Shown piece by piece: positions 49,337 through 55,987 of a stretch of DNA of 64,000 nt. Under the pieces are notes generated by a model, which did no database searches, had not been told where the DNA came from, and was given only the letters and a program-made list of their open reading frames with translations. This DNA is from Candidatus Poribacteria bacterium (GTDB lineage: Bacteria > Poribacteria > WGA-4E > PCPOR2b): the NCBI GenBank assembly GCA_022822785.1, contig JAJEAL010000053.1, positions 62,001 to 126,000 on the forward strand, given 5' to 3'. The number at the start of each line of letters is the position of its first letter. The stretch's first letter is position 1. Both the position numbers and the translations under genes were made by a program.

Positions 49337-49624
49337 CTACTTCTGAAACAGAATTTCCCCGTGCACCTCAATCGAATCGATGATTGCCATAATCACTGCA
49401 TCAACAGGTTTATCCTTGGTCACATCGGTTTGACGCGCCGAACTCCCTGCGGCAGTAAGTACCAACTCACCGACCCCTGCACCGACTGCATCGACAGCAA
49501 CCGTATATCGACTGAGAAGCGTTCCATCGAGCTCCGTATCCTGCACAATCAGCAGCTTACTGCCTCTCAGTTTCGCATCTTTTTGTGTTGCAACGACTGT
49601 TCCCACAACTTTTCCAACCGTCAT
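49337..49624 (-). CDS. EutN/CcmL-type microcompartment vertex protein
   Basis: 95 residues matching the EutN/CcmL pentamer family. It begins VGKVVGTVVATQKDAKLRG, continues through LLIVQDTE, and includes VAVDAVGAGVGELVL, the family core, followed by GSSARQT. Such proteins cap the vertices of bacterial microcompartments. No hexameric BMC shell gene or enzyme of a known microcompartment is within this window; the downstream kinase and regulator genes follow closely, so it may be part of a separate regulatory module or a stray member. Confidence 0.9.
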   Translation of the reverse strand: MTVGKVVGTVVATQKDAKLRGSKLLIVQDTELDGTLLSRYTVAVDAVGAGVGELVLTAAGSSARQTDVTKDKPVDAVIMAIIDSIEVHGEILFQK

Positions 49625-49750: not shown

Positions 49751-49804
49751 GATTTTATTGTAGTCTAGACCGGTCAACGGTTCATGAATCCTAAGGGGAA
49801 AGCT

Positions 49805-51007
49805 ATGTCAGATAAGGTTCGTTTAGCAGTCATTGGTTGTGGTGGAATCGCAAACGCCCACCTGCGAGGATATCAAGCACTTGTAGAAAAGGGAGTTGAC
49901 ATCTTTTCGATCGAGGCAACGTGCGATGTGCGTAAGGAAGCGGCCCAAGATTATGCGGGACGGGTTGGAGAATTACAAGGAACTATACCTCGCGTTTACG
50001 ATAACGTTGAAGAGATGCTAAAAGCAGAGGATTTGAACGGAGCGGATATTTGTACATCGCATGCCTATCACCACATTTCCGCTATCCCGTGTCTCGAATC
50101 GGGCGTCGATATTATGACGGAGAAGCCGTTTGGAGTAACAATCAAAGCCAGTCGGAAAATGATTGAAGTCGCAGAGAAACATGGGCGGCTTACCGCTACG
50201 GCGGAGAATTGTCGTAGGACACCCGGACAACGGACCGTTAGATGGGCACTCAACGAAGGAAAGGTTGTCGGTGCTCCCCGAATGTTCTTCGCACAATCAG
50301 GGACTTGGAACGATCCAGCGAATATCGGGGATTGGCATTGGCGACTGAGTAAAGAGCTCAGCGGCGGCGGTATGGTGATGGACAGTGGCGCACACATGAT
50401 GGATACCATCCGTTACTTCTTCGGTGATGTCGACAAGGTTTACGCCGAAGTCCGTCAGATTGATGGACGGTTCGCCAATCACGCCGAGAAGGGAAGAGTT
50501 CCCTCTTGTCATGAGGATACTTGGGTAGCGATTATTACATTCAAGAGTGGCGTTGTCGGGACGTGGAGCTGGACAGTTGCTGCGCCGTGTGCTAGCTACC
50601 TGAATGTCGCTTTCTACGGTGCCGAAGGTGTCATCCGTGATAGCGGCGATGTCTTTCATCCGTTTACAGCTCAAGACCGAGGAGAGGCGGAGAGGCTTGA
50701 TGGGAAAAGATACACCATGCAGAAGCTCCGCGAGATGTACCTTGAAACATTGAGCGATGACGAGAAAGCGCGGCTTTTCCCGCATGGACTTGAGGACGGT
50801 TTCGCGTTGGAAATCTACGATTTTATTGATGCAATCAAAAATCGGCGGGCACCCGAAGTGGATGGGTGGACCGGCTTACAAGCCAAAGCCATCTCGATGG
50901 CAATCTATGAATCAGGCTATTCTGGCGAAGCAGTAACTATCGCTGATGTGCTCGATGGAAAGGTCAACGGATACCAACAAGAAATCGATGAGCATTGGGG
51001 GCTTTAA
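49805..51007 (+). CDS. Gfo/Idh/MocA family oxidoreductase
   Basis: 400 residues from the ATG at 49805, 7-8 nt after AAGGGGA. AVIGCGGIANAHLRGY is the NAD-binding motif, TEKPFG carries the EKP signature Lys, and GGGMVMDSGAHMMDTIRYF contains the typical substrate His region. No substrate is evident. An upstream ATG seven codons earlier lacks a ribosome site. The gene diverges from the EutN-kinase operon and shares an overlapping promoter region with it. Confidence 0.92.
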   Translation: MSDKVRLAVIGCGGIANAHLRGYQALVEKGVDIFSIEATCDVRKEAAQDYAGRVGELQGTIPRVYDNVEEMLKAEDLNGADICTSHAYHHISAIPCLESGVDIMTEKPFGVTIKASRKMIEVAEKHGRLTATAENCRRTPGQRTVRWALNEGKVVGAPRMFFAQSGTWNDPANIGDWHWRLSKELSGGGMVMDSGAHMMDTIRYFFGDVDKVYAEVRQIDGRFANHAEKGRVPSCHEDTWVAIITFKSGVVGTWSWTVAAPCASYLNVAFYGAEGVIRDSGDVFHPFTAQDRGEAERLDGKRYTMQKLREMYLETLSDDEKARLFPHGLEDGFALEIYDFIDAIKNRRAPEVDGWTGLQAKAISMAIYESGYSGEAVTIADVLDGKVNGYQQEIDEHWGL

Positions 51008-51190: not shown

Positions 51191-52807
51191 CTACCTAAGA
51201 ATGGTATCTAGTCTGTGCAAATCGGCATTTTTCAGTGCTGAATCTTCCTTGTACTGATAGTAATAATCGAAGACTCGACTAACATGCCGTTCCACTGAAC
51301 GAGAGAGCTTCCTGTTTTTCCGCACGTTTCCTGGACCCGCGTTATAAGCGGCGAGTGAGAGACTGTAGTCACCATCATACCTTTGAAGCATATCTGCCAG
51401 ATATTTGACTCCCGCCTCTAGGTTTTTGAGCGGGACGAAACGTTCATCGATGTTTGGATTTGATGTTGGCTTTCTTACATTCTGATAGGAAGGTACCTTG
51501 AGGCCAAGGTCTCGCGCTGTCGGCGGCATCAATTGCAGCAACCCAGCGGCACCATTAGGCGAGATTGCTTTGGGGTTGAAATTTGACTCCGTTTTGACCA
51601 GTGCGAGGATGAGATCCACCTCGACGCCGTGCCGCTCAACGATCTGCTTAGTTGGAGATTTCGTATCGTCGGTTACCGATTGAGCTAGGCTTTCTGTTGC
51701 TGTTTTCGCTCTTTCCTTTAGGGGCTCCTCCTTCTCCTTCGCTAGAGGCACGCTTTGCCTTATGAGAGTATTCTGTTTCCCTGCGGATTTTACCCGTGCC
51801 TGTGTTGCAATTTCCTTTCTCTCCGCGACAATTGTTACTTTACTCACAGATGCCGAGGTTGCACGGACAGGGAAATCGAATGTTAAACCAACGGTGAGAA
51901 GATGTTTATACGCCACATCGGATTGGTTCAAGTAGGCGTAATGGAGATGTTTACCGTGGAGGTTGACAGAAAATCCCAAACTCCAGTCCGGCTCCGGCTG
52001 TATTCCGATGAGGTCGATTGCTGTGCCTAACCGGAGCGCCAGTCCATATGCACCAGCTTCAGCACCCATTCTGAGCTGCCACAACGCTGTATCCAACACA
52101 CTGTTCAGCTGAAGTGGTCGAACCGGTTTCCATGCTACCCCAACGGCAAATGTCTGATCGAACTGCTTCAGGAGCCTACCCTCTCGATCTGGAATAGTAA
52201 CCCCAGATATATCTATCAACGTTGCTCCCAAGATTACATGCGGGGGTAGCTTCACGATAGCGCCGAGATCGTAATTAGGTATCCATTGGCTGTCAGGGTT
52301 AGGGGCGCGATTGTATCCGAGGTTCCCGCCAAGCTGAAATCGACTGCCGATTGATCGAGCATAAGATAGCAGAACTTGGTTATAACCTGTCTCGAACGTT
52401 CCAACCGGGTTATTAGGGTGGTCGTGGAAGAATCGATCTGTGCCGTTCAAATCTAAGGCGCTCAAGCCGAATGTCCCCACGCGGTGAATCGGATAGCCCA
52501 CGGAAACCGCGCCTTGGGAAAGGTCGTAAACGAGGCTACCGCGCTCTAGGTTAGCGAGCCCCGCTGGATTCCAGAGTGCTCCCATCGAGTCATCGACATT
52601 GCTGATAAATGCCCCACTCATACCAAGCACCCTTGCACCAATCACCGGACGATAAGAAGCAGAGGCTAGTGAACTACACAGTAGCCATAAAACTAAGCTC
52701 CCAACACAGAAGGAGTACCGGTGGCTACGATATCCGTTTGTAGTTGGCAGCACTGCCTTTTTGCCTTTCTTATTCAGTTTCACAGTACAGGTAGAAACCT
52801 GTCGCAT
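51191..52807 (-). CDS. Outer-membrane beta-barrel (PorV/UPF0164-like) fused to lytic transglycosylase
   Basis: 538 residues. A signal helix (FCVGSLVLWLLCSSLASA) leads into a beta-barrel region resembling the PorV/UPF0164 group (GARVLGMSGAFISNVDDSMG, then ALWNPAGLAN) up to about 335. A Lys/Glu-rich linker is followed by an SLT domain with catalytic Glu407 (LVKTESNFNPKAI) and the GAAGLLQLMPPTA and LAAYNAGPGNVR motifs. The enzyme would cleave peptidoglycan glycan strands with a non-hydrolytic mechanism, anchored through a barrel in the outer membrane. I do not know a named family with this domain order. Last of a four-gene row. Confidence 0.85.
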   Translation of the reverse strand: MRQVSTCTVKLNKKGKKAVLPTTNGYRSHRYSFCVGSLVLWLLCSSLASASYRPVIGARVLGMSGAFISNVDDSMGALWNPAGLANLERGSLVYDLSQGAVSVGYPIHRVGTFGLSALDLNGTDRFFHDHPNNPVGTFETGYNQVLLSYARSIGSRFQLGGNLGYNRAPNPDSQWIPNYDLGAIVKLPPHVILGATLIDISGVTIPDREGRLLKQFDQTFAVGVAWKPVRPLQLNSVLDTALWQLRMGAEAGAYGLALRLGTAIDLIGIQPEPDWSLGFSVNLHGKHLHYAYLNQSDVAYKHLLTVGLTFDFPVRATSASVSKVTIVAERKEIATQARVKSAGKQNTLIRQSVPLAKEKEEPLKERAKTATESLAQSVTDDTKSPTKQIVERHGVEVDLILALVKTESNFNPKAISPNGAAGLLQLMPPTARDLGLKVPSYQNVRKPTSNPNIDERFVPLKNLEAGVKYLADMLQRYDGDYSLSLAAYNAGPGNVRKNRKLSRSVERHVSRVFDYYYQYKEDSALKNADLHRLDTILR

Positions 52808-52829
52808 TGTTACGCCTCACATATACACT

Positions 52830-52858
52830 GATATAGTACCCAGTTTTTTGCATGTCAG
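52830..52858 (-). promoter_or_regulatory. Possible sigma-70 promoter for the barrel-SLT gene
   Basis: CTGACA (52858-52853), 17-nt spacer, TATATC (52835-52830) on the minus strand, ahead of the ATG at 52807. Both boxes are imperfect. Confidence 0.3.
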
Positions 52859-52899
52859 CGATGGACTGCCTTAAAAATGTGGGCCTCGCGATGCGGTCA

Positions 52900-53394
52900 T
52901 CAATTTGTGACGGTGAGCAGTATGGTTCTGGTTGATGTCAAGACTTCAGTATCTGCATCAACTCCCGACGCTGCGACCGAAACAACTTGGCTAATCGCCG
53001 TTACAACTAGCTGGAGCACTTCAACTTTGACCCCGCCCGTATCAGCTATTTCCGGCGCAGACCAAATCGCCTTATTTTCATCTACTGCAGTCAATGTGCC
53101 GTAACCGGTTGTGTTGATCCAATTAAGGATGATGTTCGTGCCTCGAAGTTGCTCAACTGTTGCCGTCATGTTCACTGTCTCACCGGCGCGGACGGTATCT
53201 TTGCTTATCTCGACATCAACCTTAAGCGATTGATTTCCCGAGTCTGCCTGAGTGAGTGTGTTGTCGGGTTCAGTTGCTTCCGACTCTATAAGTGGGTTCT
53301 CAATACTGCTTCCCCCACAACCAATCAAGCATAAAGCAATAGTGAGAAAGACCGTGTATAATGGATCTGGTGTTGGGCGTAAGATTTTAATCAT
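52900..53394 (-). CDS. Putative lipoprotein with Ig-like/beta-sandwich domain
   Basis: 164 residues. A signal segment ends in the lipobox LIGC with Cys26, so the mature protein is probably lipid-anchored in the envelope. Then comes an acidic, Asn/Thr/Glu-rich linker, followed by a segment (VDVEISKDTVRAGETVNMTA, then YGTLTAVDENKAIWSAPE) that resembles bacterial Ig-like or cadherin-like beta-sandwich repeats. No enzyme motif. Flanked on the same strand by the NTF2-domain membrane protein and the barrel-SLT gene, with 133-bp and 92-bp gaps. Confidence 0.75.
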   Translation of the reverse strand: MIKILRPTPDPLYTVFLTIALCLIGCGGSSIENPLIESEATEPDNTLTQADSGNQSLKVDVEISKDTVRAGETVNMTATVEQLRGTNIILNWINTTGYGTLTAVDENKAIWSAPEIADTGGVKVEVLQLVVTAISQVVSVAASGVDADTEVLTSTRTILLTVTN

Positions 53395-53432
53395 CGTTCT
53401 TGTCCTTTAAGGTGAGATTTTAGATGTATTCA

Positions 53433-53461
53433 ACTGTAGATAACAGCCAAATGCGCGTCAA
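53433..53461 (-). promoter_or_regulatory. Possible sigma-70 promoter for the lipoprotein gene
   Basis: TTGACG (53461-53456), 17-nt spacer, TACAGT (53438-53433) on the minus strand. Moderate match only. Confidence 0.3.
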
Positions 53462-53527
53462 TAACAGAAACGCATAGACAAATGTACGGTTTCAGTCAAT
53501 CGGTGATACCGACTTGGTCCAAGATAG

Positions 53528-54625
53528 TTAGAGTTTCGGAGACTTAGGAACGTTTTTATAGTGTGTCCAGCTCTCGGAGTAAATCTTCCAGAGACCATCA
53601 GCGGGATCGACCATAAAGACCAACTCTTTCTTGCCAAAATCCGAGTAGATGGGTTGATTGCCGGAGGTACGGGTGCCAACAAATTCTTGGAAGAAATTGA
53701 CATCCGCTACTGCACTATCCCCGTTGATCTGTAAATGAAAAATATTGATTCTGATTCGACTATACGTCTTGTTGAGGGCTATCATCTTTTCATGCAACTG
53801 TTTTTTGTTTAATCGGGTCGGCTGCGCTTGTTCCTTGTCAATAGTGACTCGCGTAATCTCTGCTTCCGCCGCATACTTCGACATATAGGCGTTAAGATTC
53901 TTGCCTTGCCAAGCTTGCTGCCATTCCCCCAAAATCTGGCTCAATTTCAGCTGAGTATCAAGCGGTGCCCCAGAGACAACTGGTGCGGAACTATCCGGTT
54001 CAGGGGTTTGAGGTATTATAGTGTTACTGAGCGCTTCCCCATCGTCGAGCGGCTGCACCGGTGAACTTTTGGGGGTCGGGTTAGCGGATTTAGCGGCAAG
54101 CTCAACGGGCGCTTCTTGAACAACATGTTCCTCGGTAATCTCAGGATATTCTAGGTTTTCGTGGATTCTATCATCTATTAGTTTCCAGCGTTGCAAGAAT
54201 CCTTTCTTTTCGATCGTTAAATCTCGATGGATTGTAACTAGGACCTCGCCATCTTGATAGAGCGTAACAGGGAGACGTTCAATCCGTCGCCGGTTCGTGT
54301 CCGTGAAATCTTTGCGAGAAAAAAATCCATTTATATCTGCTTCAAGCTTTTCTCTGCTAAAAAGTTTCAATGCACGTTCATACTGATTCTGATTTTTGAT
54401 TCGCGCAGTCGAGTCCCATAGCTGCTCATACAACGCTGGTTTTTTCGATTCGACAGCTCGCTCCCACTGTTCAAGGAAGAAATCAATTGTCCCAATCCTT
54501 TCAAAAATCTGTAGTCCTACTACCATTGCTAGAAGGATGATAACTGCCCCAATAATACCAATCGCAGCGAAACGGGTGTTAGGATTTTGAACCGTAGTGG
54601 CAAATCCAGCATTGCCGGATCGCAT
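53528..54625 (-). CDS. Membrane protein with two NTF2-like (Cds6-like) domains
   Basis: 365 residues. A membrane helix (FAAIGIIGAVIILLAMVVGL) follows a short cytoplasmic start. Two NTF2-like regions follow, at about 45-170 (FLEQWERAVESKKPALYEQL) and about 220-360 (GEWQQAWQGKNLNAYMSKY, then LWKIYSESWTHYK), separated by a Pro/Ser-rich linker. The second region matches the pattern of C-terminal Cds6-type domains seen on L,D-transpeptidases and other peptidoglycan proteins, and resembles the C-terminal domain of the neighbouring coiled-coil protein. Likely periplasmic, inner-membrane anchored. Starts 12 bp after the upstream gene. Confidence 0.75.
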   Translation of the reverse strand: MRSGNAGFATTVQNPNTRFAAIGIIGAVIILLAMVVGLQIFERIGTIDFFLEQWERAVESKKPALYEQLWDSTARIKNQNQYERALKLFSREKLEADINGFFSRKDFTDTNRRRIERLPVTLYQDGEVLVTIHRDLTIEKKGFLQRWKLIDDRIHENLEYPEITEEHVVQEAPVELAAKSANPTPKSSPVQPLDDGEALSNTIIPQTPEPDSSAPVVSGAPLDTQLKLSQILGEWQQAWQGKNLNAYMSKYAAEAEITRVTIDKEQAQPTRLNKKQLHEKMIALNKTYSRIRINIFHLQINGDSAVADVNFFQEFVGTRTSGNQPIYSDFGKKELVFMVDPADGLWKIYSESWTHYKNVPKSPKL

Positions 54626-54637
54626 GAATCTACCCTC

Positions 54638-55987
54638 CTAATTAAAAGCTGTACTATACCGTGGAACAGCCTCGTAGACTCGCCAGCTTTCACGAAAAAT
54701 TTTCCATTCGGTGTCAACTTGACGGACCCATATTTCCCGTGTCCACACATCGTGGAGAGCGGGAGCATTCTCTCCTATTGAATCTTGTGAAAGACAGCTG
54801 AACCGATAAGTGCCAACAACATGCTTCCCATCTGCATCAAACTTGGAGTTCGTTTCCTGCCACTCAGTATTCATCATCTTTTTCAACGCATTGACCATTT
54901 GCGGACGGTGCAGCTCGGTATGCCTTTCGTTGCTGGAGCGGATAATAGTGTGCTCTAACACTGCATCTTGGGTATACTTATTCAAGTATTGATCTATATC
55001 CTTTGCTGCCCAAGCGAGTGCCCAATCACTAATGGCTGCTCTACCTCTAGCAACCTGTGCACCCGTTAACGAAGTGCTGTTTGTCCGAGCCGGCTGTCGT
55101 CTGTGCTGTTGTTGGACATAGGCTTTAGCTGCCTGTCTTTTCTGCACTAGTGTATTGGATCGCTGTTTTGTCACATTGGATTGCTCTAGTCTCTCAATCT
55201 GTTTTGAATAGCTTTGCGCCTGTGCCGCTGCCCTCGTTTGTGCTTCCGCTGCTTCTTTGCGAGCCGTTTCTACTAGTGCTTGAGCATCTACCAGCTCACG
55301 ACGCAGTTGGCGAATTTGACGCTCATGTTCTTCAACCTGACTCTGTGCTTGAAGAAATTCCGTTTGGGTCGTATCCAGTTTTGACTGAAGGCCTGCATAC
55401 TCAGTTTTTACTATACTATAATCGTGTAATGTCGCTTGATGCGCTTGTTCGCTCTCTTGGAGCTTCTTGCCCATGTTAACTTGCAGCTGATTTTTCTGTG
55501 TTTTCAACTGCTGTATATCAGTTCGAGATTGTTCAACTGCCTTATCCGCTGTTTCCAGCTTTCCTTGAAGCGCGACGATTGTCACGTCTCTGCTTTTAAT
55601 GATAGCGTTGAGCCCATTTCCCTGCGATTTATACATCGCCTCTTGCTCAGCAATCTGGGCGTAGGTCAGGGCGTTATACGCGAGGTGCATTGCCCTTAAC
55701 CCATCCTTGGCTTGTATAGCGTCCTTCGCACTTGCAAGCGCATCTTCCGCTTGTTGCACGGTATCTGAAGCAAGCGTTTGAGCGTTCACACGACGTGCCT
55801 GTTCAATAGCCATTTCAGATTGGGTAATAATCGCATCAACATTTTCCATCTGAATTTTCCCAAGAGAACTGCTGCAGGCAATGAAGAGTATCGGCAGGAG
55901 ACACATCCACGCATGGTGAATCCAATTATTCTTCCACACTCTAGGTAATCCCCGTTTTCCTATGCTCTTTTCTCTGGCCAATTTCAT
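54638..55987 (-). CDS. Envelope coiled-coil protein with C-terminal NTF2-like domain
   Basis: 449 residues from the ATG at 55987, 7 nt after TAGGAGT; an earlier in-frame ATG (56035) lacks this. A signal-like helix ends near Cys38 (LPILFIAC), a weak lipobox. A DUF4398-like helical region (EMAIEQARRVNAQTLASD, then VQQAEDALASAKDA) and a long coiled coil (about 125-290, Gln-rich) follow. Residues about 315-449 form an NTF2-like domain (WALAWAAKDIDQYLNKY, then WKIFRESWRVYEAVPRY) similar to that of the next gene. It may span or brace the periplasm. First gene of the four-gene envelope row. Confidence 0.75.
   Translation of the reverse strand: MKLAREKSIGKRGLPRVWKNNWIHHAWMCLLPILFIACSSSLGKIQMENVDAIITQSEMAIEQARRVNAQTLASDTVQQAEDALASAKDAIQAKDGLRAMHLAYNALTYAQIAEQEAMYKSQGNGLNAIIKSRDVTIVALQGKLETADKAVEQSRTDIQQLKTQKNQLQVNMGKKLQESEQAHQATLHDYSIVKTEYAGLQSKLDTTQTEFLQAQSQVEEHERQIRQLRRELVDAQALVETARKEAAEAQTRAAAQAQSYSKQIERLEQSNVTKQRSNTLVQKRQAAKAYVQQQHRRQPARTNSTSLTGAQVARGRAAISDWALAWAAKDIDQYLNKYTQDAVLEHTIIRSSNERHTELHRPQMVNALKKMMNTEWQETNSKFDADGKHVVGTYRFSCLSQDSIGENAPALHDVWTREIWVRQVDTEWKIFRESWRVYEAVPRYSTAFN

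Follow-up and report, generated by a model that had tools for sequence, protein, structure and literature searches.

Two conserved envelope gene units in Candidatus Poribacteria: a PorV-family barrel fused to a predicted lytic transglycosylase, and a pair of proteins with NTF2-type domains

Hydrolases of the bacterial wall need to be confined locally, as otherwise the cell is lysed. The known family-1 lytic transglycosylases are soluble, lipid-anchored, or equipped with LysM or TPR domains. The outer-membrane barrels of the FadL superfamily, to which PorV and PorQ of type IX secretion belong, are transporters. Csd6, Pgp2, and Bd1075 are peptidoglycan-trimming enzymes that determine cell shape. 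In the case of Pgp2, helical shape depends on residues Y233, F242, K257, K307, and E324 of a pocket that binds peptidoglycan (PMC8038945), and the NTF2 domain of Bd1075 directs its enzyme to one cell face (PMC8938487). Relatives of these proteins, arranged differently, are encoded by the gene row described here.

The window, a stretch of 64,000 nucleotides, originates from the Candidatus Poribacteria genome G000 (contig C90, positions 62001-126000), and the named close relatives of this genome are all Poribacteria MAGs. A row of four open reading frames is present on its minus strand (Table 1), separated by 12, 133, and 92 bp. The four genes are real and had been placed correctly in the earlier note: all have orthologues with 64-77% identity in relatives of the same genus (g1), which support the start sites, including that of the coiled-coil lipoprotein gene at 55987. 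The domain assignments of that note were also largely right, with the addition that the coiled-coil NTF2 protein is a DUF4398 lipoprotein. The flanking genes (cupin, AMP-ligase, GFO/IDH oxidoreductase, EutN, and histidine kinase) are, however, fixed within genus g1 as well, so that gene order kept within the genus is by itself weakly informative. Rfam and tRNA scans of the 64-kb window gave no match, and promoter and terminator scans gave hits at the chance level only.

Table 1. Features of the gene row, with positions in the window
Position	Strand	Feature	Evidence
54638..55987	-	Predicted outer-membrane lipoprotein (signal ...LFIAC/SSS), DUF4398, long coiled coil, C-terminal NTF2 domain at about 54641-55039	PF14346, homology
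53528..54625	-	Predicted inner-membrane protein, N-terminal TM helix (residues 20-38), putative periplasmic NTF2-like domains (residues 52-151 and 229-351)	DUF4440, Cds6_C, hydropathy
53573..53941	-	C-terminal NTF2 domain of Csd6/Pgp2/Bd1075 type; A238, W239, Y247, Y251, K274, K333, E351	Profiles, conservation
52900..53394	-	Lipoprotein of unit A, lipobox LIGC/GGS, putative Ig/PKD-like beta-sandwich	Adjacency, weak fold matches
52808..52899	.	Gap that holds the LysM2-M23 endopeptidase gene in relatives; deleted in genus g1	Remnants in relatives
51191..52807	-	PorV-family barrel fused to SLT lytic transglycosylase	Profile matches, conservation
51866..52660	-	Predicted barrel domain (residues 50-314), aromatic last strand GLTFDF	PorV_fam profile, hhalign, amphipathic strands
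51290..51643	-	SLT domain (residues 389-506), catalytic Glu407 at 51587-51589	PF01464 E=5e-30

Among Poribacteria relatives the row is composed of two conserved units, and is not one ancestral module. Unit A includes the Ig-like lipoprotein, the LysM2-M23 endopeptidase, and the barrel-SLT fusion, and unit B is the NTF2 pair. The earlier note had taken all four genes as one module, to be refuted by scattering in related genomes, and the gene neighborhoods go halfway toward that refutation. The four genes are contiguous and in the same order in all six g1 genomes, but only this genus joins the two units; in every other genus examined units A and B are located on separate contigs or far apart, the distance in six long assemblies being 2.41 (G019), 1.53 (G026), 2.03 (G041), 1.50 (G048), 1.11 (G030), and 1.80 Mb (G046). 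Moreover, in three genomes (G006, G009, and G012) the barrel-SLT gene is present and the NTF2 pair was not found, indicating that unit A can do without unit B. Within genus g1 the two units are probably co-transcribed.

The C-terminal part of the fusion protein matches the SLT profile PF01464 with a score of 103.8 bits against a cut-off of 21.3, and Slt70 and MltC are among the solved structures nearest to it. At least 93% of the 29 homologous loci retain the motifs E407-S408, G422-L-x-Q, and A487-Y. With the family-1 enzymes Slt70, MltC, and MltD, the domain shares the catalytic Glu and the E-S, GLxQLMP, and AAYN motifs, and it is predicted to be an active family-1 lytic transglycosylase; it differs from them in its position C-terminal to a barrel of outer-membrane type. 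The two parts are connected by an unconserved linker (approximately residues 315-385), of which both flanks, barrel and SLT, are conserved. Literature searches for PorV together with lytic transglycosylase returned no account of a barrel-SLT architecture, and Poribacteria and PorV were found together only in work about Flavobacteriaceae. Both families are thus known, but they are combined here in an architecture without description in the searched literature; likewise, no named system was found for the combination of four genes, in agreement with the earlier note.

The identification of the barrel as PorV-related, also made in that note, was substantiated by several profile comparisons. The PorV_fam profile matches the region of residues 50-314 in all 21 homologues tested, and alignment by hhalign to four PorV-type paralogues from G000 gave 99.8% and E=2e-27 over 255 of 265 columns (columns 6-261), the homology thus spanning the barrel from end to end. 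In the PDB profile search, the sole plausible match was PorV of the SprA translocon (6h3i, E=0.0065), and weak Toluene_X/FadL matches were obtained for 10 of the 21 homologues. The N-terminal signature G-x-R-x-LG...WNPAGL is shared with PorV and PorQ. However, the barrel is shorter, carries the SLT domain, is outscored by other proteins as the PorV candidate of G000, and misses the PorV/PorQ family cut-off of 90 bits (NF033709), with 43 bits at full length and 45 bits for the domain. Judged by this cut-off, it falls outside the PorV/PorQ family and is better described as a divergent PorV relative.

A total of 12 strongly amphipathic strand segments were detected in the barrel region against 4.2 in shuffled sequences (0 of 500 shuffles), and a scan at low threshold gave 18 segments against 17.5 in shuffles, with no excess. 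The strand periodicity fits about 12 strands, compared with 14 expected for the FadL type. A signal-peptide-like stretch, as read from the sequence, stops shortly before residue 50. An AlphaFold2 model of the fusion, built on an alignment of five close sequences, reached a pLDDT of 37, too low for use. From the homology and the strand pattern, residues 50-314 are predicted to form a barrel in the outer membrane.

The fusion is a class-wide trait as far as sampled. Matches to it were found in 78 of 78 genomes of relatives, one of which (G069) shows only an SLT fragment in a short open frame, probably at a contig end. Every class genome sampled contains one strong barrel-profile match inside an open reading frame of about 440-640 residues. 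The two members of the phylum outside the class (G078 and G079) have short PorV-like frames only, and no fusion. A scan of genome contigs, which reaches close relatives only, gave full-length matches in Poribacteria alone.

The order of unit A in relatives is lipoprotein, M23, and barrel-SLT. The lipoprotein gene adjoins the fusion gene in all g1 genomes and in 18 of the 22 non-g1 genomes examined; its fold is weakly supported, with PKD matches in 3 of 16 members (E 0.036) and a match to an Ig domain (8bl3, E=0.002). In 17 of the 22 non-g1 genomes examined with wider context, the fusion gene has a neighbor encoding two LysM domains plus M23. This domain set resembles that of the NlpD-EnvC type factors, but the metal-site motifs H-x-G-x-D and HLHFE are intact in all copies checked except that of L061, a truncated open reading frame call. 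Since the metal-site residues are present, the M23 protein is likely to act as an enzyme and not as a degenerate activator.

At this position the M23 gene is missing from the window and the rest of genus g1, as well as from G008, family f2, and family f5. In g1 relatives, remnants of it were detected in the equivalent gap (L038, E=2e-6; L041, E=2e-5), and a search of the gap in the window detected none. Genus g3, the closest to g1 in the tree, which was used solely for placing g1, has the gene. G008 keeps a 3' remnant between the lipoprotein and barrel-SLT genes (L045:1483-1606; 65% identity, E=1e-15), possibly reflecting gene decay in progress or an assembly fault. The remnants in g1 relatives and G008 indicate loss of the endopeptidase rather than a late gain. 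The barrel-SLT gene thus had the LysM-M23 endopeptidase gene as its ancestral partner, which genus g1 has lost; three other M23 domains are encoded elsewhere in the window genome.

For unit B, the coiled-coil protein matches DUF4398 (PF14346) with 39 bits against a cut-off of 27.9, and its lipobox is consistent with sorting to the outer membrane. The second protein has a putative TM helix, assigned by hydropathy, in front of two NTF2-like domains; its AlphaFold2 model, from an alignment of five close sequences, gave a pLDDT of 36, again too low for use. The relatedness of the C-terminal NTF2 domains of the two proteins, noticed earlier, is confirmed by E-values of 8e-7 within G000 and down to 2e-14 in relatives. 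The pair is widespread, with matches in 75 (coiled-coil lipoprotein) and 74 (inner-membrane protein) of 78 genomes, and in each of the 18 non-g1 loci examined its two genes are neighbors.

Cds6_C is the family that these domains match best and most often, with matches for 10 of 10 homologous C-terminal domains tested. Against the PF24125 cut-off of 27 bits, the isolated C-terminal domain of the inner-membrane protein scored 30, the full protein 26.1, and the coiled-coil protein 16.8. PDB profile matches with weak scores were obtained to Bd1075 (7o21, E=0.002) and Csd6 (4xzz, E=0.13), and the SnoaL_3 and DUF4440 profiles also match. As in Csd6, Pgp2, and Bd1075, the domain carries the W-x2-A-W-x7-Y-x3-Y and K...E pocket positions, and the A-W-x7-Y-x3-Y spacing, as mapped by sequence only, is the same between A224-W225-Y233-Y237 of Pgp2 and A238-W239-Y247-Y251 of the inner-membrane protein. 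K333 and E351 (K114 and E132 of the domain) are invariant in the family of this protein, with a K-E spacing of 18 against 17 in Pgp2, and K274 may be the counterpart of Pgp2 K257, an assignment by spacing that is less certain. In the coiled-coil protein, R and E occupy the positions of K333 and E351, and His mostly replaces the first pocket Tyr; the W, A-W, K/R, and E pocket positions are kept in both proteins. The pair differs from the cell-shape enzymes in the lack of the LD-carboxypeptidase, the YkuD profile giving no match in either protein, and in that the NTF2 domains are paired, one on a coiled-coil lipoprotein and the other on a predicted inner-membrane protein.

In the explanation that we favor as a whole, with moderate confidence, the barrel would serve as an outer-membrane anchor for an active transglycosylase, and the NTF2 pair would form a peptidoglycan-binding tether. 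In unit A, the N-terminal PorV/FadL-type barrel would be inserted in the outer membrane, with the family-1 enzyme hanging into the periplasm on a linker of about 70 residues that is poorly conserved. There the enzyme would cut glycan strands near the outer membrane, aided by the small Ig-like lipoprotein, likewise of the outer membrane, and by the LysM-M23 endopeptidase that most relatives have and that would cut peptide cross-links. The lipoprotein of unit B would span the wall by its coiled coil and bind peptidoglycan with its NTF2 domain, the inner-membrane protein would offer the same type of domain from the opposite side, and together they may hold or sense the wall. The link of these genes to peptidoglycan proposed in the earlier note is plausible, and its idea of connecting the membranes and trimming the wall fits each unit considered singly. 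That the four genes form a single dedicated trans-envelope complex agrees with their common strand, short gaps, and invariant order in g1, and with the fact that each unit points to peptidoglycan; nevertheless, with the units separated in every other genus examined, unit A found without unit B in three genomes, and a junction that may be due to chance, such a complex is very unlikely. An NTF2 pair unrelated to peptidoglycan, acting as a VirB8-like or SnoaL-like scaffold or as a ligand-binding pair, would accord with the great breadth of the NTF2-like superfamily and the additional SnoaL_3 and DUF4440 matches, but appears unlikely given that Cds6_C is the best family for all 10 domains and that positions matching residues of proven role in Pgp2 are invariant. 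Wall binding is the best reading of these domains, favored by Cds6_C membership, relatedness to Bd1075 and Csd6, and the Pgp2-like pocket.

Two other roles can be considered for the barrel. Poribacteria appear to have a type IX secretion system: in G000 and 20 relatives, an SprA-like open reading frame of about 2150 aa was found in 21 of 21 genomes, together with 34-82 sorting-domain matches (52 in G000) and 9-26 PorV-type barrel-profile matches per genome. A PorV-family barrel could thus work as a type IX accessory, docking on SprA in the manner of PorV while the fused transglycosylase opens the wall. However, the SprA-like match does not reach its equivalog cut-off, the loci examined contain no recognized type IX gene beside the fusion, and other proteins of the genome score better as PorV-family members (for instance, one with 217 bits against 43 for the fusion). 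The fusion therefore probably does not act as the secretion shuttle, and an accessory role seems quite improbable. The transporter nature of FadL-superfamily barrels and the Toluene_X/FadL matches would suit a channel, through which the fusion exports released anhydro-muropeptides across the outer membrane or imports a ligand controlling the enzyme, but the barrel is only about 265 residues in length and no recycling or transport genes were seen to be conserved beside it; we give little credence to this role. At its widest, the anchored-enzyme explanation would extend to a class-wide peptidoglycan-opening machine of barrel-borne SLT, adjacent endopeptidase, and lipoprotein, possibly coupled to the type IX translocon, and to an NTF2 coiled-coil tether, separate from this machine, by which the intermembrane space is measured or fixed, a proposal that we regard as speculative and rather unlikely.

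To our knowledge, no member of the class has been cultured. The object of interest is the class-wide barrel-SLT fusion with its lipoprotein and M23 neighbors, rather than the four-gene row. An integral outer-membrane barrel that carries a hydrolase, conserved throughout a class, would be an unusual solution to the problem of keeping hydrolases local, and the fusion offers a defined target for studies of the coupling between outer membrane, wall, and type IX secretion in Poribacteria. If the NTF2 pair binds the wall, a domain of three cell-shape enzymes extends to non-enzymatic proteins on facing membranes.

Several features of the surroundings were also observed. A single gene for an EutN/CcmL microcompartment vertex protein (49337-49624), kept in the genus, lies between a PilS-like histidine kinase and the oxidoreductase. 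GFO/IDH oxidoreductase genes adjoin the barrel-SLT gene both in the window genus (49784-51007, convergent) and in family f3 (L048-L056, co-directional), the f3 proteins being about 30% identical to that of the window. Across the loci L119-L135, the inner-membrane partner of unit B varies in its number of NTF2 domains: the proteins of families f1 and f4 have two, and those of f3 (about 469 aa) apparently three, as judged from repeated matches to residues 23-157. A disA gene precedes the NTF2 pair on the same strand in f3 (L122:8238-12397; also L124, L125, L126, L127, L133, and L135), and the pair is usually located upstream of a YbgC-like thioesterase gene and ABC genes. The disA product, a diadenylate cyclase, scored 371 bits against a cut-off of 201, and its position beside the pair raises the possibility of a c-di-AMP link to wall tethering.
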